A stretch of 64,000 nt of DNA from Anaerobacillus alkalidiazotrophicus (GTDB lineage Bacteria; Bacillota; Bacilli; Bacillales_H; Anaerobacillaceae). The position numbers and the translations under genes are program-made. The stretch is from contig NZ_MLQS01000030.1 in the NCBI RefSeq assembly GCF_001866055.1, positions 1,500-65,499 on the forward strand, written 5' to 3'. Numbering within the stretch: the first letter of the stretch is position 1; the number at the start of each line of letters is the position of its first letter. This document shows positions 26,032 to 42,770 of the stretch, piece by piece. The notes beneath the pieces are model-generated. The model was not told where the DNA came from, ran no database searches, and saw nothing but the letters and a program-made list of their open reading frames with translations.

Positions 26032-26043
26032 AAAGGAGATTGG

Positions 26044-26937
26044 ATGAAAGCGTACATTAAAGAAAAAATGGACCGTTTAATAATTGATACTTTTATAAAT
26101 GATGATATTCAAACGATCGTACTTGAATTTGTTCATGACCAAACAATTAGTAGAGATCTATTTTTTGGTGAACTTACAATCCTCCACTATGAAATGTTCA
26201 ATGGAAAAAATATTGATATTTATTCAGCAGCAGCGGCAGTAGAAATACTAATTTTAGCTGCTGATATTTTGGATGATTTACAAGATATTGATAATCATTC
26301 TGCACCTTGGCAGAAATATGAAAGTTCAATCGTTCTTAATATAACAACAGGACTACTTTTATTAAGTAAAAAAATACTTGATGATTTGAATTGTTCAAAC
26401 AGAAATTTGCTTGATAATATTTATTATTCAACTATCTTTCAAGCGATTACTGGACAACATATGGATTTACATAACTCTATTAATAGCGAAAAACAATATC
26501 TAGCTTTAATTGAAAAAAAATCAGGATCTTTAACAGCCCTTGCTTGTCTAGTTGGTGCAGTATTAGCTAATAGTAGTGCACTTGAGGAAGTAAGAAGCTA
26601 TAGCAAAAAGATAGGGATGATTGCTCAAATTAATAACGATATAAAATCAATTTATAACTTCGATAAAAAAAGCGATATCTTTTTAAAAAAGAAAACATTA
26701 CCAATTCTTTATATGCTTTCTTTAAGAGATAACATAGTATCAGAGTATTATACAAGTAAAAAGACCTATCAAGAGCTATTAATGATTAAAGAAGAAGTAA
26801 TAAAGCAAATGTGCGATAGAGGTGCATTTCATTATGCTAGTGTCTTTATAGAGTTAAATAAGCAAGAGGCACTCGCGATTATCCGTAGTCTGAACATCTC
26901 TAATTTTTATGAAAAGAAATTAGAACTTTATACATGA
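26044..26937 (+). CDS. comQ: ComQ, isoprenyl transferase for the ComX pheromone
   Basis: A 297-residue polyprenyl-synthetase-fold protein. ComQ cuts and isoprenylates a Trp of pre-ComX inside the cell. The first Asp-rich motif is DDLQD (residues 77-81). A GQHMDLH segment follows the middle, and NNDIKSIYNF with KKKTLPILYML mark the second, divergent motif typical of ComQ. AAGGAG lies 7 bases before the ATG. Downstream are comX, comP and comA in the classical order, which makes the call firm. Confidence 0.9.
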   Translation: MKAYIKEKMDRLIIDTFINDDIQTIVLEFVHDQTISRDLFFGELTILHYEMFNGKNIDIYSAAAAVEILILAADILDDLQDIDNHSAPWQKYESSIVLNITTGLLLLSKKILDDLNCSNRNLLDNIYYSTIFQAITGQHMDLHNSINSEKQYLALIEKKSGSLTALACLVGAVLANSSALEEVRSYSKKIGMIAQINNDIKSIYNFDKKSDIFLKKKTLPILYMLSLRDNIVSEYYTSKKTYQELLMIKEEVIKQMCDRGAFHYASVFIELNKQEALAIIRSLNISNFYEKKLELYT

Positions 26938-26967
26938 ATAAACAAATGAATATTGGGAGGGTTTATT

Positions 26968-27126
26968 ATGCAAGAAATCATTCAGTTTTTAATTAAAAAT
27001 CCAGATGTGTTAGAGAGAGTGAAAAATGGTTTAGCGAGTTTGGTTGGAGTAAGTTATGAAGAAGTGGCAGCGATATTGAATGTTTTTACTAATAGTGGAA
27101 TTACCAGGGTGGAGCTTTGGAGGTGA
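26968..27126 (+). CDS. comX: ComX pre-pheromone (52 aa)
   Basis: A 52-residue peptide, MQEIIQFLIKNPDVLERVKN and onward, ending TNSGITRVELWR. ComX precursors are about 55-60 residues and give a 5-10 residue C-terminal pheromone whose Trp is isoprenylated by ComQ. Here the only Trp is the penultimate residue (51). GGGAGG lies 8 bases before ATG. It lies 30 bases after comQ and 9 bases before comP. The gene is short enough to be missed by automatic calling; the context makes it secure. Confidence 0.9.
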   Translation: MQEIIQFLIKNPDVLERVKNGLASLVGVSYEEVAAILNVFTNSGITRVELWR

Positions 27127-27135
27127 TTTTAACAG

Positions 27136-29454
27136 GTGTTAAATATAAGTAGTAATTATAAAAAGGTAATATTTATTATGATAGTGGCGTCTATTGTTGC
27201 TGTATATTTATTTTTTACTAACTTTACTCCTTATATTGGAATTAAGCTAAAAATAGAGGAGAATAATTTCTATGTGCAATCAGTAAATGAAATGGGGTGG
27301 GGGGCACAAACTGATATTCAGGTTGGAGACCAAGTTATTTTAATTAATGATTTACCACTAGAAAATCATTATACAGTAAGAAACTTTTTAAGAATTGAAC
27401 AAGCAGAAACAATTACTGTATTAAAAGATAGTAGTCATAAAACCTATTTAATTAGTAATTCTTTAGAACTAACAAGGCAATATTTGTATTACCTAGTATT
27501 TCCTTTTCTTTACTTTCTTTGTAACACCCTAGTAAGTATTTTTATATTAAAAAGTCAAATACAAAAAAAGAGCTCTATATTATTAATTTGTTTCTTAAAG
27601 AATTTAGGTCTTTGCTTCATAAGTGCTAGTTCATCAGGAAAGCTAGATATAGTAGGAGGAGTTATTTTAAATTTTAGCTTTTTAGTTGCGCCGGTATTAT
27701 TTTTACATTTTATTTATCATTATCTAATAGAAAAAGGGAGATCATGGATTGATAAGAAGATAATTCTTTGGATATATTTTATAAGTTTATCAGCTTTTTT
27801 TGTAGACACACTTAATTATTTAGAGATAATAGATTATTTTTTTAGTGAGAAATATATCTTATTAATTTCGTTTCTAATTTTAAATTATGTAGTTACGATA
27901 ACTCTAGTAAAATGCTATCGATTATCCAAAAAGGATGAAATAAGAGAGCCGATTAGGTGGATGCTAATGGCATTTGTGCTTGCACTTGCTCCATTTATCT
28001 TTTTGTATACAATTCCATTTATTCTTATAGGAGATACGATTATATCGGGTGTAGTCGCCTCATTATTTATCTTTTTTATACCTACAATTATTTTTTATTT
28101 ATTGTTGTCAAATAAGCTTTTTCCTATCAAAGTATATGTAGATCAATTTAAATATTATTCTTCTATTTTATTGTTTCCGACAATTGCTTTTACATACATC
28201 ATTAAAGCTTATTATTCCAATGGTTATACACTTATTACAATTACCCGTACATTTTTACTAATATACGTTTTGTTGTTTTTATTTTTGGTGTTAAAGAATT
28301 ACATAGATAGAAAATTACGGGCAGTATTATTTGTAGAAAGAGAACAATATCAAAAAAGCATTTACCGTTATAGTGAGTCAATTAAACGAGAAAATAAGGT
28401 GAGTGGTGTATTAAACAGTATTGAAAGAGAAGTGAAAGAAGTATTAAAAGTAAAGTTTATCAGTTACATTCAAGTTTCTAAAAAAGGAAATTTTATTTGT
28501 GCTGACACTGAAAATCAATTTATAGAAGGTGCTTTTGCTAAAAAAATCAATTCTCAAGTTTTAAATGTTGGGAAAATCATTGAACATAAAGAGTATTTCT
28601 TTCTTGTTATTGGTGAGCGCCAAAATTATTATTACTGTTTAATAGTAAAAAAATTAATCAACATACCTTTAAGTAAAGAGCAACAAGATTGGTTAGAGGT
28701 ACTAGCCTATTACACGAGTATTTCAATAGAAAACATGATTAAAATTGAAGAACTACTAAAAAAATTAGAAAGTGTAGAAGCTGATCAAATGGTCGCAAAT
28801 AAATCAAACTGGCTAAATCGATTAATGGTTAACTGGTCAGAAAAAGAAAGAAAGCAATTAGCTATGGATATCCATGATACGATCCTTCAAGATCTGATTG
28901 TTCATAAGAGGAAAGTTGAAGAGATAAAACGATTAGCTAAGGATAAGCCACTTATTCTAGAAAGTAGAATAGAAGAATTGGAAGAAGATGTTTTAGATAT
29001 GATGTACACTATTCGCGAGACATGCCACGAGTTATCACCGCCACTTTTGGCAAAGTTAGGTCTCAAACACGCCTTGCAGGATTTAGAAGTGAAATTTAAT
29101 TTGCTTTCTACTAGTAAATTAGTTTTCAAGATTGAAGGAGATAACCAAAGTCTTCAGTTAAAAAATGATTACGAGTTAGCTGTTTTTCGTAGCGTTCAAG
29201 AATTATTAAATAACGCTATTAAGCATGCTAAAGCAACTGAAGTAACTATTTTGGTTAAAATAAGTGATCAAACTTTGGAAATATACTATCAAGATAATGG
29301 AATAGGTACAGATCTTTCTACCCAAAATAAAAATCAAAAAAATATGGGGCTAATAGGTATGAAAGGTCGTGTTCATAGTTTTGGCGGAGAAATAAAGCTT
29401 ACATCGAATCCAGGTAAGGGGATGAAAGTTCAAATCGTTATACCATTAAAATAA
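27136..29454 (+). CDS. comP: ComP, membrane histidine kinase of the ComX system
   Basis: A 772-residue sensor kinase. After a first membrane segment there is a PDZ-like extracytoplasmic stretch (about 40-115, GWGAQTDIQVGDQVILIND), then about eight further hydrophobic spans to about residue 390, a cytoplasmic linker, the HisKA_3 dimerisation motif RKQLAMDIHDTILQDL (phospho-His near 580) and a HATPase region with ELLNNAIKHAKA and DNGIGTD. This is the ComP layout. It senses extracellular ComX and phosphorylates ComA. GTG start 9 bases after the comX stop, with GGAGG inside the comX end. Confidence 0.92.
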   Translation: MLNISSNYKKVIFIMIVASIVAVYLFFTNFTPYIGIKLKIEENNFYVQSVNEMGWGAQTDIQVGDQVILINDLPLENHYTVRNFLRIEQAETITVLKDSSHKTYLISNSLELTRQYLYYLVFPFLYFLCNTLVSIFILKSQIQKKSSILLICFLKNLGLCFISASSSGKLDIVGGVILNFSFLVAPVLFLHFIYHYLIEKGRSWIDKKIILWIYFISLSAFFVDTLNYLEIIDYFFSEKYILLISFLILNYVVTITLVKCYRLSKKDEIREPIRWMLMAFVLALAPFIFLYTIPFILIGDTIISGVVASLFIFFIPTIIFYLLLSNKLFPIKVYVDQFKYYSSILLFPTIAFTYIIKAYYSNGYTLITITRTFLLIYVLLFLFLVLKNYIDRKLRAVLFVEREQYQKSIYRYSESIKRENKVSGVLNSIEREVKEVLKVKFISYIQVSKKGNFICADTENQFIEGAFAKKINSQVLNVGKIIEHKEYFFLVIGERQNYYYCLIVKKLINIPLSKEQQDWLEVLAYYTSISIENMIKIEELLKKLESVEADQMVANKSNWLNRLMVNWSEKERKQLAMDIHDTILQDLIVHKRKVEEIKRLAKDKPLILESRIEELEEDVLDMMYTIRETCHELSPPLLAKLGLKHALQDLEVKFNLLSTSKLVFKIEGDNQSLQLKNDYELAVFRSVQELLNNAIKHAKATEVTILVKISDQTLEIYYQDNGIGTDLSTQNKNQKNMGLIGMKGRVHSFGGEIKLTSNPGKGMKVQIVIPLK

Positions 29455-29476
29455 GTAGCTAAAAGCAGGTGATAGT

Positions 29477-30121
29477 TTGATTAATATTCTTATTGTAGAT
29501 GATCATTCCATAGTGGGAGAAGGTACAAAAACTATATTATCAAGTGAAACCGACTTTAATGTCGAGTTCCATGGTTCAAGTTTAGAAATAATGAGTTTAT
29601 TGAAAGTAAAAAAACATGATGTTTATTTAATAGATTTTGAAATGCCTGAATTAAATGGTTTAGAATTAACAAAGGAAATTTTGAACGTTCATCAAGATGC
29701 GAAGATTATTATTTTTACAGGTTATGAAATTACTTGTTATTTTAACCATCTAGTTGAAGTCGGCGTTTCTGCCTTTATAAGCAAGTCATCCTCTAAAGAA
29801 CAGCTTATTCGTACAATCAGAGATGTGATCAATCATCAATCCGTTATTCCTACTGAGATATTACATCAACTTCGAAGGACCGAATCTAAACTTTGCTTCG
29901 AAAACGGTACCAAAATTTCATTTTCTCTAAAAGAAGAAGAAATTGTGATAAAGATCTCCAAAGGACTAACAAACGAACAAATAGCGAAGGAATTATTTAC
30001 GAGTAGTAGGACTGTAGAAAGACATTTAAGAGAGATTTTCAAGAAATTAAATGTTAGTTCCAGAGTTGATGTTGTTGAAAAAGGACGTAAGCTAGGGTTA
30101 ATACCAGAGGTTTTGATTTGA
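29477..30121 (+). CDS. comA: ComA, LuxR-type response regulator
   Basis: A 214-residue regulator with an N-terminal receiver domain (acidic pair D8-D9, phospho-acceptor D53 in YLIDFEMPELNG, Lys in FISKSSS) and a C-terminal LuxR/NarL helix-turn-helix (GLTNEQIAKELFTSSRTVER). In B. subtilis ComA~P activates competence and surfactin genes. TTG start with AGGTGAT 4 bases before it. It is followed by a terminator. The peptide-modification operon 530 bases downstream is a plausible target, though no clear ComA box was found. Confidence 0.9.
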   Translation: MINILIVDDHSIVGEGTKTILSSETDFNVEFHGSSLEIMSLLKVKKHDVYLIDFEMPELNGLELTKEILNVHQDAKIIIFTGYEITCYFNHLVEVGVSAFISKSSSKEQLIRTIRDVINHQSVIPTEILHQLRRTESKLCFENGTKISFSLKEEEIVIKISKGLTNEQIAKELFTSSRTVERHLREIFKKLNVSSRVDVVEKGRKLGLIPEVLI

Positions 30122-30125
30122 TCAT

Positions 30126-30156
30126 AGGATGCTCTCGATTTGAGGGCATCTTTTTG
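30126..30156 (+). terminator. terminator of comQXPA
   Basis: GGATGCTCTC / GAGGGCATC stem with GATTT loop, then TTTTTG. Confidence 0.85.
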
Positions 30157-30653
30157 ACGTCCATCAAAAATTTCATTTTCTATACAATTAACTTAGCATT
30201 CCAATTAGTCTAGTAAAAATAAAGTTAGTGACCGACAAAACTTGGTGAAACTCCGCCAAAAATGGCGGAACCGCGCCACATTTTGTCGGTTACTTTTTTA
30301 CCAAGATATAGTAGGATAATTGGTAAGAGTTAGGAATTGATAATCTGTTAAATTAGACAAAGTTGGAACGAAATTCAAATGCTATTTTATAAAAAGTACC
30401 CTTATGTAAAACAACACGATGCTTCTGACTATGACGCTTAGTTACAGTAAAAACAGTAATTGTGTGAACAAGAAAAAATCGGTACCGTTACGTTTGGTGT
30501 ATAGTTAAGTGGATATTCGAAGAATTCAAAAAAAACGCTCCTGTTAATAAATAATTTCAATATAATGTAAAATGAAATCAAAGAATTTATGATAAAGACT
30601 AATAAATTGATTTAGTGACTATTTAACTACTACAAAAATGGGGGTAGGTTTAA
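30157..30653. promoter_or_regulatory. intergenic region upstream of the peptide-modification operon
   Basis: About 500 non-coding bases. 30231-30300 is a terminator-like repeat described separately. 30563-30568 is TATAAT, a possible -10 without a clear -35. GGGGGTAGG before 30654 is the ribosome binding site. I looked for the ComA box TTGCGG-N4-CCGCAA and saw none; TGGCGG-AA-CCGCGCCA at 30263 is part of the repeat. Confidence 0.4.
30231..30300. repeat. double-stem terminator-like repeat, copy 1
   Basis: The outer stem is ACCGACAAAA / TTTTGTCGGT, the inner one CCGCCA / TGGCGG, followed by TTACTTTTTT. Related copies are at 39971-40010, 43576-43625 and 44675-44723. Similarity to copy 3 continues after the hairpin (GATATAGTAG.AT...TAGTAAGAGTTGG-like) to about 30340. 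Confidence 0.75.
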
Positions 30654-31463
30654 ATGAATATGAAAACTAAAGAAATACTTGAATACAAGAAAAACATTGA
30701 ATCTAAAATAGAAAAAAAATATAAGAGTTTAAGCAAGATGCTGAATATAGAAATTAAACAAAGAATTGATGGTAGGTATTTATTATTGCCTTACGCAATT
30801 AATGAAATATTCGAAGTTACAGATGAGCAATTAACTATATTAGAAGAAATAGCAGGTTTGTTTTTAGATCATATTAGTTCAATTGATATGGTAATAGATA
30901 GAGAAAGTAATGATATGACTTTCCTATCTGTAAAATACTTTTTAATATATGAAATAATAAATTCGTTCAGAAAGTTAAATCTGTCACAATCATTTTTTGA
31001 GGAATTAGTACAAGACGCTGCAGAATACATTTTTTCAATTAACAGAGTAAATTTTCCTATCGGAAGTGATAGTCTATATGAAAGAGTGGCAAGAGGAAAA
31101 CTGAAAATGGTGAATTGTATTATACGTGCTATGAATGAATTAACCAGCAATATAACATCATATTCATTATTCGAAATAAGCCAATATTTCTCAAATATTT
31201 GTTTACTGGAGCAATTATTTGATGACTTACGTGACATTGATGAAGATTTAAAAAGTAAACAATATAATTATTTTAATTCTCAAACAGATGACAGAGATAA
31301 TATTGCGTATAAATTGTGCGAAAAAATAATTAGTTTGTCGGAAGTTATTAATAAAAATAGCTCTAGTGAGTTTGAATTACTAAATAAAATTTTCTTAGAT
31401 GATAATTTAATTAAGGTTAAAACCATTAGAGATAAGATAGAAGAAAAGAAAGTAATGATATAA
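30654..31463 (+). CDS. class-I isoprenoid-synthase-like protein, first gene of the RiPP operon
   Basis: A 269-residue, largely helical protein. Two acidic motifs sit where class-I isoprenoid enzymes bind Mg-diphosphate: LDHISSID (residues 71-78) and FDDLRDIDED (189-198), the latter like the second motif of phytoene/squalene-synthase-fold proteins. It is not a close copy of the ComQ upstream. It opens an operon with a radical SAM enzyme, protease, exporter and Trp/Cys-containing precursor peptides, so peptide prenylation or supply of a prenyl donor is a reasonable guess. That role is inference; the fold assignment rests on motif spacing only. Confidence 0.6.
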   Translation: MNMKTKEILEYKKNIESKIEKKYKSLSKMLNIEIKQRIDGRYLLLPYAINEIFEVTDEQLTILEEIAGLFLDHISSIDMVIDRESNDMTFLSVKYFLIYEIINSFRKLNLSQSFFEELVQDAAEYIFSINRVNFPIGSDSLYERVARGKLKMVNCIIRAMNELTSNITSYSLFEISQYFSNICLLEQLFDDLRDIDEDLKSKQYNYFNSQTDDRDNIAYKLCEKIISLSEVINKNSSSEFELLNKIFLDDNLIKVKTIRDKIEEKKVMI

Positions 31464-31520
31464 AAAATCTAATTTTAATTACTATATAAATACTTTTTTG
31501 TATGTTAGGGAGATAAAATT

Positions 31521-32864
31521 ATGTTAATTGTTTCAAATTATACTATATTTTCAACAATGAATTGTAAAAATAAATATATTGTGCATGGATATACGGGAAG
31601 TGTTGATTTATTAGAGGAAAATGTCTATAGCAAACTATTACAAATTTCAAAAATGAAGAAAGAAAAACAAGAAACGCTTCTGAGTTCGCTAAAGGATATT
31701 GATACCTTAATTGAAAGGGGCTATGTTGTTTCAAGTTATAAAGATGAAGAAAAATATTATAGGATAGCAAACCATTTATATGAAAGTAGATCAATGATTA
31801 CATCAATTGTGATTGTACCGTCAATGGGGTGTAATTTTAGGTGCTCTTACTGTTTTGAACTAACAGACTTAGATATGGCCCCGATGAAAAAAATGGAATT
31901 AAGTGTAATTGATTCTACTTTTAAATATATTGACAAACTAGAAACAATTAAACAAATAACACTATTCGGTGGAGAGCCACTAGAAAAAGATAACTATAGT
32001 ATTGTTGATTATATAGTGAATGAAGGCAAAAAAAGAAATATACAAGTTAATGCGGTAACTAATGGATATGATTTAGATAGCTACATAGAAATATTTAAAA
32101 ATAATGTGAATTTTGATTCCATCCAAGTTACTTTAGATGGAACTAGAGAAAGACATGATTTATTAAGGTATTTGAAAAATGGGTCAGGAACGTTTAACAA
32201 GATAATTAAAAATATTCAAATGCTAATTAAAGAAATACCTAAACTAAATATTACAATTAGAGTAAATCTATCAATAGAAAACGAAAGCGATTATATAGCT
32301 TTAAAAGAATATTTAAAAGCCAAAGAAATTCTATCTGATTGTACCAATGTAAGTATTTACAATAAATGTCTACATACAGCTTACATTAATACTAAAAAAA
32401 AGTATATGGATAAAGATATTACAAAGAATGATGATATAAAACACGATAATCTAACATATAAGTTGCATAGATCACAAATAAAAGATTTACTAGGTAGAAA
32501 TAGCATTCCATTTCGAACATCAGTCTGTGGTGCAACTGGAAATATGTTAGTCGTCACACCTAATAAGAATTTGTTTGCATGTTGGGAACAAATCCAAAAT
32601 AATAACAAATCAATAGGTAAGATAAGTTTAGAAAAAGATAATAGGATACAGTTTAATGAAAAATATTTAAACTGGAAAAAAAGACATGTTCATATGTTGA
32701 AAAATTGTAGCAAGTGTAAATATAGTTTGTTCTGTGGTGGAGGTTGTCCGAATCATTCTGAAATAGTAAATAATGATATGTTTCAAAGTTACTGTCAAGA
32801 TTCAAAGATTATGATTCATAAAAGTTTTGACGAAGCTATTGGAGAAAAAATTAATGAATGTTAA
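31521..32864 (+). CDS. radical SAM/SPASM peptide-modifying enzyme
   Basis: A 447-residue enzyme. The N-terminal 90 residues (NKYIVHGYTGSVDLLEENVY) resemble the leader-binding front part of RiPP maturases. The radical SAM cluster motif is CNFRCSYC (C104, C108, C111), and FGGEP is the SAM-binding motif. The C-terminal SPASM region (about 335-445) has SVCGATGNM, FACWE, CSKCKYSLFCGGGCPNH and a late Cys, which would hold two auxiliary Fe-S clusters. Such enzymes make thioether, carbon-carbon or epimer modifications on precursor peptides. The Cys-x-x-Asn-x-Cys peptides encoded downstream are the likely substrates. AGGGAG lies before the ATG. Confidence 0.9.
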   Translation: MLIVSNYTIFSTMNCKNKYIVHGYTGSVDLLEENVYSKLLQISKMKKEKQETLLSSLKDIDTLIERGYVVSSYKDEEKYYRIANHLYESRSMITSIVIVPSMGCNFRCSYCFELTDLDMAPMKKMELSVIDSTFKYIDKLETIKQITLFGGEPLEKDNYSIVDYIVNEGKKRNIQVNAVTNGYDLDSYIEIFKNNVNFDSIQVTLDGTRERHDLLRYLKNGSGTFNKIIKNIQMLIKEIPKLNITIRVNLSIENESDYIALKEYLKAKEILSDCTNVSIYNKCLHTAYINTKKKYMDKDITKNDDIKHDNLTYKLHRSQIKDLLGRNSIPFRTSVCGATGNMLVVTPNKNLFACWEQIQNNNKSIGKISLEKDNRIQFNEKYLNWKKRHVHMLKNCSKCKYSLFCGGGCPNHSEIVNNDMFQSYCQDSKIMIHKSFDEAIGEKINEC

Positions 32865-33897
32865 TACGTTAGTAACTGATAAAAATCCCTCAATAAAAAT
32901 AGCAGAATTTGATTATAACGGAAAGCAAAAAAAAATTGTTGCATACTCTAAGAAGTACAACAATGCAATATTATTAAATAAAGAGATTCCTATAGAAGTA
33001 CTATTACAAAAAGAGGATAAATACTTTAATTTTAAAAAAGAAAAAACAATCTTTTTTAAAAAAATAATAGGGAGCAGTTGGGATTTTAGTTTTTTAAAAT
33101 ACTTTGAGTTTCTTTTAACTAAAACAGGAAAAATATTTTGTTTTTTTCTCTTATTTCCTTGTATTTTGACGTTTTCACTTATTAAATTTATTTCTCAACA
33201 AAGTAAATTATATAGTAATTTTTTTGATACAAATAGCCTTTTAGTGATTATTCTATTTTGCATATGTTTACTAATACAAACTATTTTTCATGAATTTGGA
33301 CATTTAACTGCAATGAAAAAAAACAAACTTAGTTTGAGTGGGGTAGGTGTAGGAATATATTTAACATCGGTAGTATTATTTGTTCCAATGTATGAAAGTT
33401 GGTTATTAAAAAGAAAACAAAGACTGGAAATAGATATAGCGGGAATTATTTTTCAACTTTATTTTATCTTTATAGTATTAATGGTTAATTTATTTATTAA
33501 AAGTGAACTGGTTAACATATATATATTATTTTCTACTATGATACTATTAAATAACTTTAATCCATTCTTAAAATATGATGGTTATTGGATATTATCTGAC
33601 CACCTTGGTGTTTACAATTTACACAAATGGATAAGAATATCTATCAAAAATATGTTCACTAATAGTGAAGAATTAACAGCAGTATTTTATAAGCATACAA
33701 TCATAAAAATTAAATGTTACTCTTTAATTACAAGTATTTTTTTAGTGTTTTTCCTATTTATGCTATTTAGGATTAATGTTACAAATATAACAGAATTAAT
33801 AGTTGAAGCAAATATTTTCAGGCTTTTTTACACTGTTTTTATCGCCTATTTTACATTGCTTGCATTTAAGTCAATTATTCGTGTTTTATGGAGGTAG
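32854..33897 (+). CDS. M50-family membrane zinc metalloprotease
   Basis: A 347-residue multi-pass membrane protein with HEFGH (residues 146-150) as zinc site and NPFLKYDGYW as the downstream metal-ligand motif, as in site-2-protease-like peptidases of RiPP systems such as YydH. It probably removes the leader or processes the modified peptide at the membrane. ATG at 32854 overlaps the radical SAM stop by 11 bases, with GGAG 10 bases upstream; an earlier in-frame TTG at 32827 lies inside the upstream gene. Confidence 0.88.
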   Translation: MNVNTLVTDKNPSIKIAEFDYNGKQKKIVAYSKKYNNAILLNKEIPIEVLLQKEDKYFNFKKEKTIFFKKIIGSSWDFSFLKYFEFLLTKTGKIFCFFLLFPCILTFSLIKFISQQSKLYSNFFDTNSLLVIILFCICLLIQTIFHEFGHLTAMKKNKLSLSGVGVGIYLTSVVLFVPMYESWLLKRKQRLEIDIAGIIFQLYFIFIVLMVNLFIKSELVNIYILFSTMILLNNFNPFLKYDGYWILSDHLGVYNLHKWIRISIKNMFTNSEELTAVFYKHTIIKIKCYSLITSIFLVFFLFMLFRINVTNITELIVEANIFRLFYTVFIAYFTLLAFKSIIRVLWR

Positions 33898-33900
33898 ATT

Positions 33901-35808
33901 ATGAGGATAAAGGTACATAATTTAAAAGAAATAAAAGATAAAAGAGAAGTTTTTTCTAATGTGGATTTTGAAATAAAAGAAAACTCCCTATTTTGTATTA
34001 CTGGACGATCGGGAGTAGGTAAAACTACATTATTTTTTTCAATGATGGGTTTAAGTAAAACTACAAGTGGTGAAATATATTATGGTAATTATTCGTTCCA
34101 CGAGTTATCTGATAAAGAAAAGGAGGCATTTAGACAAAAGTTTTTCGGTTTTGTACCACAGCAGCACTTATTAATAGAAGAATTTAGTGTTTATCAAAAT
34201 GTCACTATACCATTAAGGTTTTCTGATATGTCAAAGAAAGAAAAACAAAATAAAGTTAAAGAAGTATTAATTCAAGTAGGTTTAGAAGGATATGAAACAA
34301 AAAAAGTATCAAAATTATCAATTGGAGAAAAGCAGAGGGTTGCTATAGCAAGAGCAATTATCCATAGTCCTAAGATAATATTTGCTGACGAACCAACTGC
34401 ATCTGTAGATAGACATAATCGTGAAAAAATATTAAATATTTTTAAAGAACTAGTGAATAAAGGTACAACAGTAATTATTATTACCCATGACCGTTATGTT
34501 GAAGAACAATGCAATATAATCTATAACTTAGAAACAAGAGAAATAACTCAAAATGATAATAATGGATTCACATCACTTATAAAGGAGATTAGTCGTCCAA
34601 ATAAGAAAAAAAATAACTATTTTTCAGGTTTGATTTACTCGTTTCACCATTTTCAAAATAGTAAAGCACGAAACATACTTTTGATCTTTACCATTTTAAT
34701 TTCATTAGTATTAACATTCTTCATTCAAGCGGTGAATAGAGGTTTGTTAAATAATTATTCAGAGTTTATCAATGAAACAAGTAATAGAACCTTAGTTATA
34801 ATTGATCAACAAAATAGAGATATAGATGATATAAAGAATATTACTAATGAAACATTACATAAAGCGGGAAATAAGATAGAAAAAATTGAGGAAATTGGTG
34901 TATCCCAACAGTTTATTAAAATAGAGTTTAATGGCAAAACACATAACCCTCTTAATTTTTATAATAATTATTTACAAGAATACCCAGAAACTGTAACTTC
35001 ATTACCTTATAATAACCCTAACAACGTAATTTTAGGTACTGAGAAAATAAATAGAAACGGAGTTATTATTCCAGAAACACTTGCAAAACAACTAACTGAA
35101 CAAGGGGATTTAACAAATATAATTGGTGAAAGTATTACCCTTAAAATTCCTACTAATGTTGAGTTAAAATCAATAACTTTTGAGATTCAGGGTATTTTAG
35201 AATCGGATGGAAATTCAACTAATTATCCAATTTTCATTTCAAAACAGCGATATAACTCACTCAGTGATGAACTTAAAAGGGATAAGATTTACTTGGTGGA
35301 CATGTTTGAAGAGGTAACTCAAGAAGATGTATTTAGTCTTGCAGTTGAAGCAAATATAACTGCCAATAATCCAGCTATTTCCCTTTCGAACTTTCTAAAT
35401 ACTGTAAATGCTGTAAAAATGTTAATGGTGTTTTTAACTTCCGCATTTATATTGGTTACTCTTACATTTACTTCTCTCTTATCTTATATAAATGTAGTTC
35501 AAAGGAAATCAGAATTTGCTATTTTTTCAATTTTTGGATTCAGTAAATTTAAAAATGCACAAATCTTTTTATTTGAATACTTTTTAGTTTTTTTAGTTGC
35601 AGGCCTAACTTCAGTTTTATTATTTAACTTCCTAATAGATCCAATAAATATATTATTTGAACAACAAAGCAATTTAAAAGAAGTTTTAAAAATGAATAGT
35701 TTAGATTACTTAATAGGTTTATCAACGTTTTTATTGTTCTTTGCTATAGTTTTAATAATACCTCTATACAAAATAGTAACAAATAGTGTATATAAAAATT
35801 TGCAATAA
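33901..35808 (+). CDS. fused ABC transporter ATPase-permease, MacB/FtsX type
   Basis: A 635-residue exporter. Residues 1-220 form the ATPase (Walker A GRSGVGKTTL near 35-44, signature LSIGEKQRVAIARA near 140, Walker B IIFADEPTASVD). Then comes a membrane part with one span near 255-275, a large extracytoplasmic domain (about 280-500), and three spans at the C-terminus with the FtsX-like fold. It starts three bases after the protease stop (GGAGG upstream) and lies directly before the precursor genes, so it likely exports the mature peptide or gives self-protection. Confidence 0.88.
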   Translation: MRIKVHNLKEIKDKREVFSNVDFEIKENSLFCITGRSGVGKTTLFFSMMGLSKTTSGEIYYGNYSFHELSDKEKEAFRQKFFGFVPQQHLLIEEFSVYQNVTIPLRFSDMSKKEKQNKVKEVLIQVGLEGYETKKVSKLSIGEKQRVAIARAIIHSPKIIFADEPTASVDRHNREKILNIFKELVNKGTTVIIITHDRYVEEQCNIIYNLETREITQNDNNGFTSLIKEISRPNKKKNNYFSGLIYSFHHFQNSKARNILLIFTILISLVLTFFIQAVNRGLLNNYSEFINETSNRTLVIIDQQNRDIDDIKNITNETLHKAGNKIEKIEEIGVSQQFIKIEFNGKTHNPLNFYNNYLQEYPETVTSLPYNNPNNVILGTEKINRNGVIIPETLAKQLTEQGDLTNIIGESITLKIPTNVELKSITFEIQGILESDGNSTNYPIFISKQRYNSLSDELKRDKIYLVDMFEEVTQEDVFSLAVEANITANNPAISLSNFLNTVNAVKMLMVFLTSAFILVTLTFTSLLSYINVVQRKSEFAIFSIFGFSKFKNAQIFLFEYFLVFLVAGLTSVLLFNFLIDPINILFEQQSNLKEVLKMNSLDYLIGLSTFLLFFAIVLIIPLYKIVTNSVYKNLQ

Positions 35809-35864
35809 AATAGAACCCTCAAAAGGAAAGGTTATTTCAAAAACTGCTGAAAGGAGAATCTACA

Positions 35865-35999
35865 ATGTTACCATTGAATGAACTCAGTGAAGTATTAGAT
35901 GAATTAGAGAATAAAGAACTTTTATCGTGTAGTTGGAATGCTTGTCCAATAAATCATGGGAACTGCTTTGTTGTAACATGTAGTTTTGACATATCATGA
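35865..35999 (+). CDS. RiPP precursor peptide 1 (44 aa)
   Basis: Reads MLPLNELSEVLDELENKELL, then core-like SCSWNACPINHGNCFVVTCS and FDIS. AAGGAG is 8 bases before ATG. The leader motif ELE-N-K-x-x-L-S leads into C-S-W-N-A-C, matching the Cys-x-x-Asn-x-Cys motif of the other peptides. Two further Cys lie in a longer tail. It follows the exporter gene by 56 bases, and its stop overlaps the start of peptide 2 (ATGA). Probable substrate of the radical SAM enzyme. Confidence 0.8.
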   Translation: MLPLNELSEVLDELENKELLSCSWNACPINHGNCFVVTCSFDIS

Positions 36000-36127
36000 G
36001 ATCGTTAAATTCCGTCATTGATATAGAAGAACTAGAAGACAGAGAAGAGTTGGGCTGTTGGGTTAATATTTGCGGTATTAATCGTAGTGTATTACCTATC
36101 ATGATTTGCAAAATCAATTTTATTTAA
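35996..36127 (+). CDS. RiPP precursor peptide 2 (43 aa)
   Basis: Reads MRSLNSVIDIEELEDREELG, then core-like CWVNICGINRSVLPIMICKI and NFI. The ATG overlaps the stop of peptide 1 by four bases, so translation is coupled. The leader motif ELE-D-R-x-x-L-G is followed by C-W-V-N-I-C, again Cys-x-x-Asn-x-Cys with Trp one position earlier than in the others. It contains W-V-N, a tripeptide of the type cyclised by cyclophane-forming radical SAM enzymes. Confidence 0.75.
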   Translation: MRSLNSVIDIEELEDREELGCWVNICGINRSVLPIMICKINFI

Positions 36128-36266
36128 TTGATAGGATAACTATGTTTTTTTAGGAAGATTAATTTCTTCTAAATTTCCCCATGTAGGTCAACTCAAATTT
36201 AATATGTTTTAAACTATATTAGCGCCTTTTGAGGAAGAGAAATAACCTGCTAAGAAAGAAAGGGGG

Positions 36267-36368
36267 AAATCTGAGGCCGATCAGCTAATTGTAAGTGTAG
36301 TGGAATTAGAAGAAAAATTAGAATTTGGTTGTGGTTAGAATAATTGCAGAGTTAATCTAATAGCATAA
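36267..36368 (+). pseudogene. RiPP precursor copy 3, broken
   Basis: A frame reading VVELEEKLEFGCG, then a TAG (36336-36338) and NNCRVNLIA. Compared with copies 4 and 5, the TAG replaces the Trp codon TGG. The first codons have also changed, leaving AAATCTGAGGCC where ATGAAAAATTTA would be expected, so no start codon remains. GAAAGGGGG upstream is the old ribosome binding site. Confidence 0.75.
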
Positions 36369-36402
36369 TAAGCTTTAAAGATGGAGAGGAGAGCAAAAAA
36401 AT

Positions 36403-36513
36403 ATGAAAAATTTAAATCAGACTGATGAACTAATTAAGTGTGTAGAAGAACTTGAAGAAAAATTAGAATTTGGTTGCGGTTGGAATACTTGCGGAGCTAA
36501 TTTAACATTATAA
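36403..36513 (+). CDS. RiPP precursor peptide 4 (36 aa)
   Basis: Reads MKNLNQTDELIKCVEELEEK, then LEFGCGWNTCGANLTL. GAGAGGAGAG lies about 10 bases before ATG. Leader motif ELE-E-K-x-x-F-G precedes C-G-W-N-T-C. The core is only 12 residues after Gly24. A Cys at position 13 lies in the leader. It is nearly identical at DNA level to copy 5, a recent tandem duplicate. Intact and the best candidate for product isolation. Confidence 0.8.
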   Translation: MKNLNQTDELIKCVEELEEKLEFGCGWNTCGANLTL

Positions 36514-36548
36514 TAAGCTTTAAAAAGTGAGAGGGGAGGAAATAAATA

Positions 36549-36658
36549 TGAAAAACTTAAATCAGACTGATGAACTAATTAAGTGTGTAGAAGAACTTGA
36601 AGAAAAATTAGAATTTGGTTGCGGTTGGAATACTTGTGGACTTAATGGCTCCGCCTAG
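36549..36658 (+). pseudogene. RiPP precursor copy 5, single-base frameshift
   Basis: Identical to copy 4 for the first 17 codons, but one A is missing in the GAAGAAAAA stretch at about 36600 (CTTGAGAAAAATTAG against CTTGAAGAAAAATTAG). Translation would stop at 36609-36611 after about 20 residues. Without the deletion the core would be CGWNTCGLNGSA and end at the TAG at 36656-36658. A sequencing error in the A-run cannot be excluded. Confidence 0.7.
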
Positions 36659-36749
36659 TTAATGTAAACAAGATTCTATTAAGACGCTTTTAAGATTTTT
36701 CATACATATATTACTTCTATAATAAAGCGTAATAAGAGATAAGGTTTAC

Positions 36750-37037
36750 TTGGATGAGGGATCATGGAGTCGAAGTAATTTCAATCAAAGCATGAGCAAT
36801 TTTACTAGAAGATATGGTAGTCGTGCTTTTGCATTTTCTGGTGGTGCATTATTAGCGCAAGTAGGTTGAGGGTATTGGACAACACTTATTAAAGTTGGTG
36901 GAAAAGTAGCAGCAGTAGTAGCTAAGATTGGAGCTGCATTTGGTGGAGCAAAAGGTGGGGCACTTGGAGCCTTGTTAGCTTTAGGAACTGATGCTCTTAT
37001 AGTTATTTATTTGGGAAGAGCGGTAAGAACTTTTTAG
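36750..37037 (+). pseudogene. bacteriocin-like small hydrophobic protein, interrupted by TGA
   Basis: A frame from TTG 36750 (AAGG 5 bases upstream) reads LDEGSWSRSNFNQSMSNFTR ... GGALLAQVG, TGA at 36867-36869, then GYWTTLIKVGGKVAAVVAKI GAAFGGAKGGALGALLALGT and on to a TAG at 37035. The Gly/Ala-rich amphipathic second half looks like a class II or circular bacteriocin. The TGA sits before GYW and may be a mutated Trp codon. If so, it is a pseudogene; the family is not identified. Confidence 0.5.
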
Positions 37038-37060
37038 TTAAGATTTAATCATTAAGGTCT

Positions 37061-37103
37061 AAGTGCAAGAATCGATAGACTAATCGATTTTTGCACTTAT
37101 TCT
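37061..37103 (+). terminator. terminator of the peptide-modification operon
   Basis: AAGTGCAAGAATCGAT / ATCGATTTTTGCACTT with a 6-base loop, then ATTCTAT. It marks the downstream border of the RiPP region. Confidence 0.9.
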
Positions 37104-37244
37104 ATATTGGAGGAGTTATGTTTCGTAAAAAAATTCATGATGTCTGACACCCTAAATTCAAAAAGTTCAACTCGTTTAAACCAGTAGAGTTTAACTGTTT
37201 TTGTTTACCATGCAATTCATTTTTCAAAGCGAGGTGAGGACCAA

Positions 37245-38130
37245 ATGATAAAAAGTTTATACTTTAAATATATTAAATCGGAATTTAACATTTTATTATT
37301 GAATAATTTGTTCAATAGTTATAGCGGACAGCTATTATTCAACAAATAAAGACTTCCAAATGTGGTTTGCTATGGTTGAATTAACAATGCAAGAAATGAA
37401 AGGTACTCATAAAGATCATTTCCTGGAATTTTTAAATAATTATAATGGGTTAACGTATTTTGATAACCTGTTATATTCTGCTAATCAATATCTTATGCTT
37501 TTGTTTGTTTTGTTGATTGGGTTTGGTATGCATTTGGTAGGAAATACTGTTACTTTTCAACAGAGGGATTTTCATAAAGGGCTTGTTGAAAATATCGTTT
37601 CAAAAACCCACATAAAAAATGTAATTGTCGCACAGGCACTTTATATTATGACATTTGTTGCATCTATTCTATTAATAGCAATAGGGGCTGCCATGTTATT
37701 GTGGGGCGGAAATATATTTCAACCATTCATTAATTCCTTTGTAGGTGAATTCTATGGCTGGAGTTATATATTAGTTATGATCGGTCATGTGTTATTACTA
37801 ATTACATTCTTAGTTTTAGTAATAACAATTTCTTCACTTATTGTCCCGAATGTTAAAAATAAATTTGTCGTTAAAATGGTTCCGTTTATTCTTTGCTTGT
37901 TGACATTTTTAGTTGTTTTAACAATAGGGAATCTTCACTGGATATTAGATAAGATAACCTATTATCTCAGAGTAGATACGTATTTATTTAGCTTATATAA
38001 TTTTATCAGTCAGGAATCATGGTCAACTAAGCACTTAGTATTAGAAATGTTGACGTTATTTATTAGTTTGCTAGTCTTGACCCTATACTTAATTAGAGTA
38101 AATAAGAGAAAATTCGAAACGATTGCTTAG
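37245..38130 (+). pseudogene. ABC-2 type permease, frameshifted
   Basis: The start MIKSLYFKYIKSEFNILLLN (ATG 37245, GAGGTGAGG upstream) is in one frame and stops at 37347. The rest of a typical ABC-2 permease, DSYYSTNKDFQMWFAMVELT onward with five to six hydrophobic spans to the stop at 38128, is in another. The break lies near 37300-37315. Restoring one base would give a protein of about 290 residues. There is no ATPase partner nearby. A shorter product from ATG 37360 (256 residues) cannot be ruled out but lacks a ribosome binding site. Confidence 0.7.
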
Positions 38131-38140
38131 CTAGCTCATA

Positions 38141-38455
38141 TTGGAGATTAAACAGTTTTATTTAGTCGGCATCTTGTATATTCTTGTGACTGTTCGAGCT
38201 TTTAGTGGATTACGTATTAATCCATTTTATTTTATTGACTTTTTCTATCGGAAATTTACGAAAAATAATATGTTAGAACTTTTGGCTGCTAGTCTAGCAA
38301 TTCTTTTTTACTATGTGATAAACGGGTATATTTATAGCTTTCCTGAGATTATTACGTTTCCGTTTATGACAATCTTTTTTTATAGTAGGTGCTTTATTGA
38401 TGTGGAGGAAGTGTTAATGAAAAAAGGGAAGTCGGATATGGAGTCAAAAGTATAA
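38141..38455 (+). CDS. small membrane protein, unknown
   Basis: A 104-residue reading from TTG 38141 with hydrophobic segments around residues 5-20, 48-64 and 68-85. It starts 10 bases after the permease stop, but no good ribosome binding site is visible, so the start is uncertain. I do not recognise the family. It may be a companion of the permease and equally decayed. Confidence 0.45.
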   Translation: MEIKQFYLVGILYILVTVRAFSGLRINPFYFIDFFYRKFTKNNMLELLAASLAILFYYVINGYIYSFPEIITFPFMTIFFYSRCFIDVEEVLMKKGKSDMESKV

Positions 38456-38684
38456 GTTAAAAAAGCAGTTTCAGTGGAGAGCGCGATTCTTATCAACTGG
38501 TGCCAGATAGTGCATCTTGGTGCCAAACACTTAACTTATTGATAATGCCATGTATATGAAGACAAAAAGCCACCCTGGGTTAGTGTTTTAGATAGTGAAG
38601 TTAAAGACTGGTTTAAAGTTCAGCAAGATAAATATAAATGTTTAAAAAAAATGCCTTAGAGGAATAAAACGAGGGAGGGTTTTA
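38456..38684. other. intergenic, possible gene debris
   Basis: A short plus-strand frame around 38569-38659 reads KKPPWVSVLDSEVKDWFKVQ then QDKYKCLKKMP and stops. It lacks a start and is probably the tail of a lost gene. GGGAGGG before 38685 is the ribosome binding site of the next gene. Confidence 0.3.
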
Positions 38685-38993
38685 ATGAATGAGATTAAAT
38701 TAACAAAAAAGGAAAATCAGTTTTTAGAAGTTGTATTAGATAAACTTATTATGAATGGAGTAAAAGAAAAGATAATAAACGATGCTCGGAACAATATATA
38801 TGAACAAGTTAGAGAATCTAGAGTTAAAAATGAGGATCCCCTAATCGAATTAGGTGATCCAGAAGAAATGGCAAATGAATACTTGAAGATTACAAGTACG
38901 AATAAATCGAATAACAGGTGGTTACCTACATTAATATTTATAGCAATAATGCTCGTATTTTCTTTTTTAATTAGATGGTTTTTTATAATATGA
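38685..38993 (+). CDS. small membrane protein with HAAS-like (DUF1700-type) N-terminus
   Basis: A 102-residue protein. The N-terminal 70 residues are helical and include LIELGDPEEMANEYL, which resembles the HAAS helical domain found in small membrane proteins that accompany PadR-type regulators. A single membrane span (about 80-101) ends the protein. GGGAGGG lies 8 bases before the ATG. No PadR gene is next to it. The family call rests on the GDPEE-A-EY pattern only. Confidence 0.55.
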   Translation: MNEIKLTKKENQFLEVVLDKLIMNGVKEKIINDARNNIYEQVRESRVKNEDPLIELGDPEEMANEYLKITSTNKSNNRWLPTLIFIAIMLVFSFLIRWFFII

Positions 38994-39167
38994 AGGCAAT
39001 AAGCTGGTTACGCAACCAACTTTCTCAATTTTCTAGTTTATAAATTAAGGCTTATTGTTACCATAAGATTATTAATTATAGAGAGAAGGCAATTATAATA
39101 GAGTTTATTCTTTATCATAAAATTGGTTATATAAAATTAAGAACCCGTTATTATCATTATTTCAGCC

Positions 39168-39522
39168 TTGGAATTTATACCAGAAGATTTTTTGGGCGGC
39201 TTTGGAGTTTTCCTGATTAGTATCCTTATTATTGTTATGCTTCTTATTGGTACGACATTATTCCTTGAAAAAATACTAAAGGCGTATAAGACGCCAGATT
39301 CTGAAATAAGAGAGCAGCTTTTGCATTTTTGTAAACAAGCAGAATTAGAACGTAAAGCTTTATATATGGTCAATGAAAAAAACAAAGTGACGAATGCTTT
39401 AGTAACTGGGATTACTCGAAAAAAACATATCTATATCACAGATTATTGAATTGAAAATATGACGTTAAAATAAAGTGAAGCGATCCTTGCTCATGAAATT
39501 GGACATATTAAAAAACTATTAT
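39168..39522 (+). pseudogene. M48-type membrane metalloprotease remnant
   Basis: Reads one membrane span, then NALVTGITRKKHIYITDY, a TGA, IENMTLK, a TAA, SEAILAHEIGHIKKLL and a stop. AHEIGH is the zinc-binding HEXXH of M48 (HtpX/Ste24) peptidases, and the preceding text is the usual lead-in. Two in-frame stops before the active site and the missing C-terminal half show that it is dead. Confidence 0.8.
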
Positions 39523-39638
39523 AATGTGTGCAAGGTCTGTTACTTTTATACTCTAAGTCTAGTAGCTGTTTTTGTAAATCTGTTATTTTTGTAATATATA
39601 ATTAAGAATATGATGTTGTAAAGCGAGGTGATTTCATA

Positions 39639-39884
39639 ATGAAATATATGCCATATTATATGTCTTTACTTGGTTTCTTTCTAACTCTTATATTTTTAGC
39701 TATTATTGGCAAAGTCTTAAATATTGATTGGTTGATACTGCTCTATGATTTCAGAGAAATATCAAATGGTGGAATAGTCGAAGCGAGAATTTCTTGGATA
39801 ACGATAATTTTAGCAACAATTGTTAGTTATTTGAGTTGGAAATTAGGTAAGAAAAAATTTCAGGACGATAAGCTGAGTTCATAA
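39639..39884 (+). CDS. small two-span membrane protein, unknown
   Basis: An 81-residue protein with hydrophobic segments at about 5-27 and 50-67 and a basic, charged C-terminus (KLGKKKFQDDK). GCGAGGTGATTTC provides a ribosome binding site 7-8 bases before the ATG, and a terminator follows at 39899-39952. I do not recognise it. Confidence 0.6.
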   Translation: MKYMPYYMSLLGFFLTLIFLAIIGKVLNIDWLILLYDFREISNGGIVEARISWITIILATIVSYLSWKLGKKKFQDDKLSS

Positions 39885-39898
39885 ATAGCAAGTTTAAA

Positions 39899-39952
39899 AT
39901 ACTTTAGTAAAGCCGTTTATAAAATAGACGATGTCTTTACTAAAGTTTTTTT
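39899..39952 (+). terminator. terminator after the small membrane protein
   Basis: AACTTTAGTAAAG... pairs with CTTTACTAAAGTT across about 24 bases, followed by a T-run. Confidence 0.85.
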
Positions 39953-39970
39953 ATTTAAAAGATTAGAACA

Positions 39971-40010
39971 CCACGCCAAAATTGGCGGTATACCGCCAAA
40001 ACTTGTCGGT
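39971..40010. repeat. double-stem terminator-like repeat, copy 2 (degenerate)
   Basis: CACGCCAAAATTGGCGGTATACCGCCAAAACTTGTCGGT: the inner GGCGGTATACCGCC stem is intact but the left outer arm is lost. Compare 30231-30300. Confidence 0.6.
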
Positions 40011-40095
40011 TCGAAATCGAAGCTTTTATTGTATGATTAATTGTAGCTTTATGAACTTATATTATTTTAATCATATGTTTGAGAGGGTGGAGTAA

Positions 40096-40764
40096 ATGTC
40101 AGAATTACATGAGAAAAGTAAAGAAATTATTGTGAAACTAGGGAAGCCGTCGGTATTTGGAATGTTTTTAAATCCAAGTGAGCAGTTTCAAAAGCTGAAA
40201 GCTAATCCGCTAGTGTTTGTACCGTTATTGTTAGTAACACTTTTATACACGATTGCAATGGCAATTATCGCTTTTGGAACGGATAGCTCGTGGTTGCTTG
40301 CAGAAATCGGTCCAGAGGATATAGAGATTTTTGCTGAAATGGAAATGTTCATGCGGATTATGATGTTAGTAACTGGGGTGTTTATTCCAGTTATGGGTGC
40401 ACTAATTTTTGCTGTTGTTATCATAATCGTTGCAAAAATTAGTAAGAGTGAGGTTACTTTTAGGCAGCTATTTTCTTTAGCGGTATTTGTATCCGTCATT
40501 GGTGGAGTAGGAGTTTTATTTAATGCGATCATGACGACATTACTCGGAACAAATCCAGATATACCATTTACTAGTTTAGCTAGTTTATTTGGAGAAGAAA
40601 ATGTGAGTCCATTATTCATAAGTATAGAGGTATTCTCGATTTGGCAACTTATTGTTGCTGTAGTCGGTTTAAGAAAAGTAGCGAATTTTGGTGCAGCGTT
40701 AGCATGGATCGTAATGATTTTATTTACTATCTTTAGTATCTTTTTAGCATTATTAGTTAGCTAA
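40096..40764 (+). CDS. Yip1-family membrane protein (YknW-like)
   Basis: A 222-residue protein with a cytoplasmic N-terminus (FLNPSEQFQKLKANPLVFVPL) and five hydrophobic spans, typical of the Yip1 domain. In B. subtilis YknW of this family assists the YknXYZ exporter that protects against the SdpC toxin. The remnant of a YknX-like gene directly downstream supports the comparison. GAGAGGGTGG lies before the ATG. With YknX broken and YknYZ absent, its present role is unclear. Confidence 0.75.
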   Translation: MSELHEKSKEIIVKLGKPSVFGMFLNPSEQFQKLKANPLVFVPLLLVTLLYTIAMAIIAFGTDSSWLLAEIGPEDIEIFAEMEMFMRIMMLVTGVFIPVMGALIFAVVIIIVAKISKSEVTFRQLFSLAVFVSVIGGVGVLFNAIMTTLLGTNPDIPFTSLASLFGEENVSPLFISIEVFSIWQLIVAVVGLRKVANFGAALAWIVMILFTIFSIFLALLVS

Positions 40765-40887
40765 GAAAATATTCGTTAAATAAATAGGGCTTGCGCAAGT
40801 GAATCTGCGTTAACCCTTTTTATTACTATAAAATTATATGGATATAGCGACAAGCCTCATATCGAATGATAAAACAAAGGAGCTTTT

Positions 40888-41330
40888 ATGGAAAAAAGAA
40901 AAAATGGATCATCGTAGGTGTAATAGTATTAATTGGGGTTATGACAACGGTAGGGGTTGCCCGTTCCATTGAAGAAACGATTTATGAGGTTGAAACAGTT
41001 AGTCCTGAGCTGACACTCCTAGTTTTGGCGGTAATGCTGCCAGGAACTCTATATGTCAAAAATGAACAAATCGTATATTATTCCCCTGAAATAGGACAAC
41101 AATATGAGCTGTTAGTTGAAGAAGGAGATTTCGTAGAGAAGGGCACAGCGCTTATTAAATATAAGAGTCAACATTTGGAAATTGAAAAAGAGCAATATGC
41201 GTTATCGATACAGGCTATTGATTTACGTTTGTCAGAAATAAACAGACAGAAAGACGATGTAATAAAGCAAAAAGCTGAGCTTAACAAAAAGAAAGAAGAT
41301 TTAAAGAAAAGAGATTGCGCTTTTCTTGAA
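40888..41330 (+). pseudogene. YknX-like (HlyD/membrane-fusion) exporter subunit, truncated and frameshifted
   Basis: An N-terminal membrane segment (KWIIVGVIVLIGVMTTVGVA) is followed by a biotinyl-lipoyl-like region (VEEGDFVEKGTALIKYKSQH) and a coiled coil. The natural ATG (40888, GGAGC ribosome binding site) is out of frame by one base in an A-run with the rest. The protein breaks off at about residue 150, where GCGCTTTTCTT, the end of the interspersed repeat, begins. The homologous proteins have about 380 residues. The sequence can only be read from an upstream ATG at 40866 in the other frame. Confidence 0.7.
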
Positions 41331-41344
41331 AGGGAGAGGGTTTT

Positions 41345-41566
41345 TTGGAGCTTTATAAAATTTTATCAATATTAGCAGCAGTTTTTTCTATATTAGCAGC
41401 ATTCCAGTTTTATCAGTTAGGGAGACGATTTAAAAAACTTCAAATAGGAGATACGCTTTCAAATGAACTTGTAGCTGAAGCTAGGTGGAAAATAAAGGTT
41501 TCTATAGTGCTATTTGTAATAGGATCTCTTTTAGCTATCATCGTTATTTTTATAAGACCTTATTAG
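41345..41566 (+). CDS. small two-span membrane protein, unknown
   Basis: A 73-residue protein from TTG 41345 (GGGAGAGGG 6 bases upstream) with spans at about 5-22 and 52-70 separated by a charged loop. Not recognised. It lies in a row of similar small membrane protein genes. Confidence 0.5.
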   Translation: MELYKILSILAAVFSILAAFQFYQLGRRFKKLQIGDTLSNELVAEARWKIKVSIVLFVIGSLLAIIVIFIRPY

Positions 41567-41635
41567 TTAAAACGATTGATCTGAATTAATAGTATATTTT
41601 ACAGGAATGAATATTTTATATGAGGTGGTAGCAAA

Positions 41636-42589: not shown

Positions 42590-42624
42590 TTTTCATTAGT
42601 GTGTAGATGGTTGTAAACGTCTAG

Positions 42625-42750: not shown

Positions 42751-42770
42751 TGGTGTGCTTTAATTGGATG

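Follow-up and report, generated by a model that had tools for sequence, protein, structure and literature searches.

A candidate RiPP cluster pairing a radical SAM/SPASM enzyme with a proposed stand-alone Trp prenyltransferase in Anaerobacillus alkalidiazotrophicus

The epipeptide system YydFGHIJ consists of a radical S-adenosylmethionine (SAM) enzyme, an M50 peptidase and an ATP-binding cassette (ABC) exporter. Other peptides are modified by enzymes that resemble trans-isoprenyl diphosphate synthases (trans-IDS). The trans-IDS-like enzymes include ComQ, PalQ and the ChrPC P domain, and every characterised one targets Trp (PMC13290415); the chemistry of ComX is Trp prenylation (PMC13290415, PMC10373908). 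In ChrPC the P domain acts on an internal Trp, and the C domain helps the prenyl chain to cyclise (PMC13290415). PalQ of Paenibacillus alvei transfers C5-C15 units to the C-terminal Trp of a nitrile hydratase leader peptide (NHLP) precursor (PMC10853753). Here, 64,000 nucleotides of A. alkalidiazotrophicus (contig NZ_MLQS01000030.1, positions 1,500 to 65,499, forward strand; "the window") were analysed, and a gene cluster for a ribosomally synthesised and post-translationally modified peptide (RiPP) at positions 30,654 to 37,103 was compared with these systems.

The genes and motifs of the cluster were located as first claimed in an earlier inspection of the DNA letters (the sequence-only reading): four protein genes, each with a Shine-Dalgarno-like stretch in front of it as seen in the letters themselves, are followed by tandem precursor peptides, which confirms the layout first described. 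The first gene encodes a trans-IDS-like protein, referred to as the 30654 protein. Gene order, predicted fold, motifs, homology to RiPP-linked prenyltransferases and a correlation with precursor Trp indicate that the cluster probably makes a doubly modified peptide, with a radical SAM crosslink and a prenyl group on Trp, that is cleaved by the M50 protease and exported by the ABC protein. The crosslink and prenyl group suggested by the sequence-only reading thus stand as the best inference. The leader would guide crosslinking and prenylation, whichever of the two comes first. The radical SAM/SPASM enzyme would form a Cys-to-Asn(i+3) thioether or a similar crosslink on repeated Cys-x-x-Asn, and the 30654 protein would take a prenyl group of C10-C20 length from an allylic diphosphate and attach it to the indole of the only Trp in the core, on the model of PalQ and the ChrPC P domain as reported. 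The chain would be acyclic, because the protein stops after the P domain and has no squalene-cyclase-like C domain. Cleavage of the leader, within the membrane, would fall to the M50 protease, and export of the product to the ABC/FtsX protein.

The four intact short open reading frames (ORFs) have an acidic leader in common (..ELEDREELGC.., ..ELEEKLEFGC..) and the cores CSWNACPIN, CWVNICGIN, CGWNTCGAN and CGWNTCGLN; Trp is present in 4/4. C..N.C occurs in 5 of the 432 window ORFs of 25-80 aa, and 4 of the 5 are these precursors. In 40 Markov-simulated windows the mean was 1.25 and the largest count 3, and the leader together with the motif was obtained in 0. The precursor set is therefore beyond chance. 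The Cys-x-x-Asn-x-Cys pattern of the sequence-only reading was to that extent well founded, but the actual unit is a repeated Cys-x-x-Asn. In the window cores Asn stands at Cys+3 for 9/11 core Cys (other offsets, 0-1). Among 39 recognised cores from 21 related loci it does so for 33/133 (other offsets, 2-8); 1000 shuffles of the other residues with Cys fixed averaged 8.9 at this offset and never exceeded 17. A hand-picked subset of 32 cores from 19 relatives, which omits about half of the peptides of locus L035 and all those of L052 and L068, gave 29/103; the 39-core count is the full one. Given this enrichment at Cys+3 in the window and in related cores, the true repeat unit is, as judged by sequence, C-x-x-N, recurring every five residues in the window. 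The Trp lies inside the first such unit, in the order W-V-N in precursor 2.

The radical SAM/SPASM, M50 and ABC assignments were borne out. The radical SAM protein matched PF04055 at 71.8 bits and the SPASM family TIGR04085 at 51.7 bits (cut-off 27), and CNFRC.YC together with seven further C-terminal Cys is invariant among 13 aligned relatives. The M50 protein carries HEFGH and DG motifs and scored 156.7 bits with the family profile and 26.5 bits with PF02163, slightly below the cut-off of 27.2. The ABC-FtsX fusion matched PF00005 (104.1 bits), PF02687 (36.6) and PF12704 (30.6), and has the Walker A motif GRSGVGKT. The top NCBIfam ranks for the radical SAM protein were TIGR04463 (153.1 bits, cut-off 525) and CefB NF038107 (132.9, cut-off 600); CefB also ranks first, far below its cut-off, for P0003, a 50%-identical relative. 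The window precursors, with Cys every fifth residue, add to this likeness, whereas neither cut-off is reached; to our knowledge the CefB and TIGR04463 definitions include no prenyltransferase. The closeness to YydFGHIJ proposed in the sequence-only reading did not hold. The window shares the set of radical SAM, M50 and ABC proteins, but its M50 protein reached 55.1 bits with the YydH/LiaK family (cut-off 225), and the radical SAM protein is nearest to TIGR04463 and CefB, far below cut-off. The YydG-type epimerase family was not among the best 25 of 54 NCBIfam matches listed, and the YydFGHIJ precursors are, we presume, unlike those of the window. A daptide assignment was not supported, the daptide_HExxH protease family giving 64.5 bits against a cut-off of 300. 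With ranthipeptides and sactipeptides the window can be compared by its CxxN spacing alone, a thioether from Cys to a second residue being putative.

A class I isoprenoid-synthase fold was obtained for the 30654 protein in a predicted model, in agreement with the sequence-only reading, as are its two acidic motifs, ISSIDMVIDRES (DxxxD) and EQLFDDLRDIDED (QxxDDxxD). The first aspartate-rich motif (FARM), IDMVID, has the D-x-x-x-D form typical of most RiPP-linked rows, the second FARM Asp being missing; the second aspartate-rich motif (SARM), EQLFDDLRD, has a Gln upstream. In a tree that included two ComQ rows and PalQ-like rows, PalQ and ChrPC themselves being outside the set, the protein groups with the RiPP-linked set, outside the canonical synthases and ComQ (starred branch 99/96). 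The canonical synthase profile scores it at -0.5 bits, and BLASTP against the window ComQ gave an E of 1.9. By its position outside the ComQ branch it does not appear to be a ComQ.

PalQ-like rows from five genomes of one family, presumably Paenibacillaceae, lie on the same side of this tree as the 30654 protein. All five PalQ-like genes (L200-L204) adjoin NHLP-type peptides ending in or near Trp, the one in L202 having been called by eye; the link to PalQ is made through these NHLP/Trp peptides and not through PalQ's own sequence. Three of the peptides end in Trp, and those of L202 and L203, with GPWRS and GPWRD, are ComX-like. The window cluster resembles PalQ/PalX in having a stand-alone trans-IDS-like enzyme next to a Trp precursor; it differs from the NHLP leader, C-terminal Trp and three-gene cluster, without radical SAM or M50, of that system (PMC10853753). 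Direct searches with the 30654 protein returned only itself among the proteins searched, by a method that requires shared five-residue words; further searches gave no match in the genome contigs, in 0/150 relatives and in no plasmid. The A2 profile matched 2/299 genomes of the order, one match being an ispA as judged by neighbouring genes, and 6/398 of the phylum, five of them PalQ-like. The two-domain profile (described below) found no further window ORF at E <= 0.01. Relatives of the protein were reached only via the gene neighbourhoods of distantly related radical SAM proteins.

To collect these neighbourhoods, genome contigs were scanned with 13 radical SAM sequences, and the best 80 of at least 401 loci with a relative were retained. 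With profiles built from locus members, a related M50 was found in 20 of the 80 loci, and 8/20 of these encode a two-domain protein of 662-741 aa (L037, L041, L044, L048, L051, L086, L089, L098), as against 0/60 loci without M50 (p 4e-6, which overstates independence as the loci are related). The C-terminal part matches the squalene-hopene cyclase Pfam family, above cut-off in 5/8 and below it in L037, L044 and L086. The N-terminal part matches the polyprenyl synthetase family in 3/8, never above cut-off. The eight proteins share the P plus cyclase plan of ChrPC, taken by description only (PMC13290415); the 30654 protein differs from ChrPC in having no cyclase domain. The loci belong to Bacillota, Bacteroidota, Ignavibacteriota and Balneolota; a Gemmatirosa plasmid adds Gemmatimonadota. 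Mapped on a radical SAM tree of 40 rows, the two-domain label requires three changes, of which starred branches call for at least two; the two-domain loci are therefore not one clade. For the same-genus radical SAM matches (L002-L005), no other cluster gene was recognised in stretches of 3.1-4.2 kb.

Trp in the precursor core was associated with the two-domain enzyme. With the first leader filter, under which L037 and L041 (with enzyme) and L031, L040 and L068 (without) yielded no precursor, Trp was present in 6/6 loci with the enzyme vs 3/10 without. The relaxed filter, which recognised none in L086 and L058, gave 7/7 vs 3/12. Both filters joined, a set-up made after data inspection, gave 8/8 vs 4/13 for 21 loci (the 20 M50 loci and the plasmid L031). 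When the any-Trp test was fixed, three L044 precursors and those of L033, L035 and L036 were already in view, and p-values overstate independence among these related loci. Trp within two residues of the first Cys, a post hoc count, occurred in 4/6 vs 0/10 (first filter) and 4/7 vs 0/12 (relaxed). In the cluster of Clostridium sp. DSM 8431 (L037), a true polyprenyl diphosphate synthase gene lies inside the cluster at 9806-10813; it is likely a dedicated donor supply. L033, L035 and L036 carry a BtrH-type acyltransferase in the prenyltransferase's place, and their products are possibly fatty-acylated crosslinked peptides. An acyl-CoA synthetase-like neighbour is seen in L033 and L035, and the L035 precursors, roughly a dozen in tandem, nearly all lack Trp.

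The two modules also occur separately. Two Hymenobacter plasmids carry a gene for a stand-alone P protein, scoring 126.6 and 109.5 bits, then an M50 gene and a gene for a short peptide whose Trp immediately follows the leader: ..LDQRLETAWSMG.. (no Cys) and ..LAPRTEIWSKD.. (two Cys far downstream). The stretches examined, 16.8 and 14.8 kb long, showed no annotated radical SAM gene and no CxxxCxxC frame, and the 21 records in which a radical SAM relative was found (E <= 1e-10) include neither plasmid. In the Gemmatirosa plasmid a fused enzyme gene overlaps the M50 gene; within 19.7 kb the sole long CxxxCxxC frame (243 codons) does not resemble radical SAM proteins, and no precursor could be made out. 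This separate occurrence supports Trp as the target of the prenyltransferase and Cys as that of the radical SAM enzyme.

A wider proposal, to which we give even chances, is that one leader type acts as a shared dock for swappable modules (radical SAM, prenyltransferase with or without cyclase, acyltransferase) in at least five phyla, and that the window peptide, crosslinked and Trp-prenylated within the same ring, belongs to an undescribed class. If so, radical crosslinking and Trp lipidation would be joined in one small operon, and the minimal Hymenobacter systems would be a natural separation of the two steps. The cluster would also provide a compact tool for crosslinked lipopeptides and a stand-alone internal-Trp prenyltransferase. 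The sequence-only reading knew of no described family with this combination, a view that holds only by half. The Trp prenyltransferases PalQ and ChrPC are published, Trp prenylation of RiPPs by this enzyme group is already known, and related radical SAM plus M50 clusters exist in other phyla; the combination itself, however, was not found in the open-access literature. No description was found there, among the papers listed, of a pairing of prenyltransferase and radical SAM/SPASM enzyme on CxxN peptides, or of an internal-Trp enzyme that stands alone beside an M50 protease. The ChrPC study (Hubrich 2024) may already contain a prenyltransferase and radical SAM pairing.

Several observations weigh against prenylation of the precursor Trp by the 30654 protein. 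The protein forms a long branch (2.58) with identity of at most 21%, so that its position inside the RiPP-linked group is unsure, and Foldseek by itself returned no match at E <= 0.001. The sequence and gene context of ChrPC were outside the comparison. No prenyl diphosphate synthase besides comQ was found in the window by a default-setting profile that also missed comQ. In L044 the P domain motifs are lost, yet one of four precursors has Trp, so the predicted absence of Trp failed; the L051 Trp lies close to the C-terminal end, not next to Cys. By eye, 5/13 loci without the enzyme have a precursor Trp, one L035 peptide having been missed by the filters. The conserved Gln before the SARM is present in ispA as well and is not diagnostic for Trp transfer. 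This Gln, the fold and QxxDDxxD shared with canonical synthases and the missing FARM Asp would fit a prenyl diphosphate synthase or a dead scaffold that leaves the peptide untouched. We regard this as unlikely, given the branch outside the canonical synthases, the negative score with their profile, and the Trp in all intact precursors and in 8/8 relatives with the enzyme. It is more doubtful still that the enzyme targets another residue (e.g. Cys or the N-terminus) and that the Trp serves the radical SAM enzyme in the manner of Trp-linked cyclophanes. The placement of Trp inside a predicted crosslink site, and W-V-N in precursor 2, would suit such a role; on the other side, the leader-adjacent Trp persists in the two Hymenobacter systems, where no radical SAM gene was seen within 16.8 and 14.8 kb, 9/13 radical SAM plus M50 loci without the enzyme have no Trp (by filter), and the characterised trans-IDS-like enzymes all target Trp (PMC13290415).

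Features of the cluster and its upstream region in the window.
Feature	Position	Strand	Remarks
Stand-alone trans-IDS-like protein, proposed peptide Trp prenyltransferase	30654..31463	+	269 aa
Radical SAM/SPASM peptide maturase	31521..32864	+	447 aa; CNFRCSYC at residue 104
M50-type membrane metalloprotease, proposed leader peptidase	32857..33897	+	346 aa from ATG; HEFGH at 145
ABC ATPase fused to FtsX/MacB-type permease, proposed exporter	33901..35808	+	635 aa
Precursor 1, core CSWNACPINHGNC...	35865..35999	+	leader, Trp, repeated CxxN
Precursor 2, core CWVNICGINRS...	35996..36127	+	start overlaps precursor 1 stop
Dead precursor copy	about 36270..36368	+	no ATG; TAG exactly in place of core Trp codon
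Precursor 3, core CGWNTCGANLTL	36403..36513	+	
Precursor 4, core CGWNTCGLNGSA	36548..36658	+	near-copy of precursor 3
Terminator-like hairpin	37060..37099	+	17 pairs; region end
Complete comQXPA quorum-sensing locus	26044..30121	+	directly upstream, context outside cluster
comQ	26044-26937	+	Pfam polyprenyl_synt 61.8 bits
comX	26968-27126	+	Pfam ComX 65.4 bits
comP	27136-29454	+	HisKA_3, HATPase_c
comA	29477-30121	+	Response_reg, GerE
Strong hairpin with T-run between comA and cluster	30223..30298	+	probable terminator

The upstream comQXPA, the exact CxxN repeat, the Trp correlation and the dead precursor copy are features beyond the sequence-only reading. The terminator that it placed after the precursors is present as a hairpin, but follows a small broken ORF (36750-37037) and not the precursors directly. 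By itself this hairpin is weak evidence, with 2 such sites in the window vs 1.4 expected. The broken ORF is interrupted by a stop, and its second part is hydrophobic and Gly/Ala-rich; it looks like a decayed bacteriocin-type peptide gene. Neither piece matched a Pfam family above cut-off, and Rfam gave no match within 25500-45500 at E up to 0.1.

The comX product ends in RVELWR, with Trp next to last. ComQ/ComX shows the trans-IDS-like Trp prenylation (PMC13290415) that is proposed for the window cluster; it differs in that the window has its own comQXPA, with the 30654 protein outside the ComQ branch. For the region 30215-30305, which separates comA from the cluster, a folding energy of -41.1 kcal/mol (z -8.46) was obtained. 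TGGCGG-N4-CCGCCA palindromes occur 5 times in the window vs 0.16 expected, two of them upstream of the cluster (30243-30278). This pair was rejected as ComA boxes, being parts of the terminator-like hairpin; so were the sites at 39983-39998 and 43588-43603, perfect palindromes also within hairpins. Although a complete comQXPA on the same strand directly upstream, together with Trp prenylation as the chemistry of ComX (PMC13290415, PMC10373908), could suggest a second pheromone module making a modified signal or a ComA-controlled product, this is very improbable in view of the intervening hairpin, the apparent boxes that form part of it, the lack of ComQ likeness in the 30654 protein, and the nearest genome (G001, 90% complete), which keeps comP and comA and shows no cluster.

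G001 is collinear with the window until just past comA; its comQ-comX is only a fragment, with no matching comX. On another G001 contig, matches to window 30253-30393 and 38122-39158 flank about 1.9 kb of other genes, with one ABC ATPase-like frame and no cluster match. Because G001 carries other genes between matching flanks, the cluster seems to be an accessory module at a variable site. Short interspersed repeats at about 42373-42590 and 42625-42751, with about 20 listed matches each in G001, resemble miniature inverted-repeat transposable elements.

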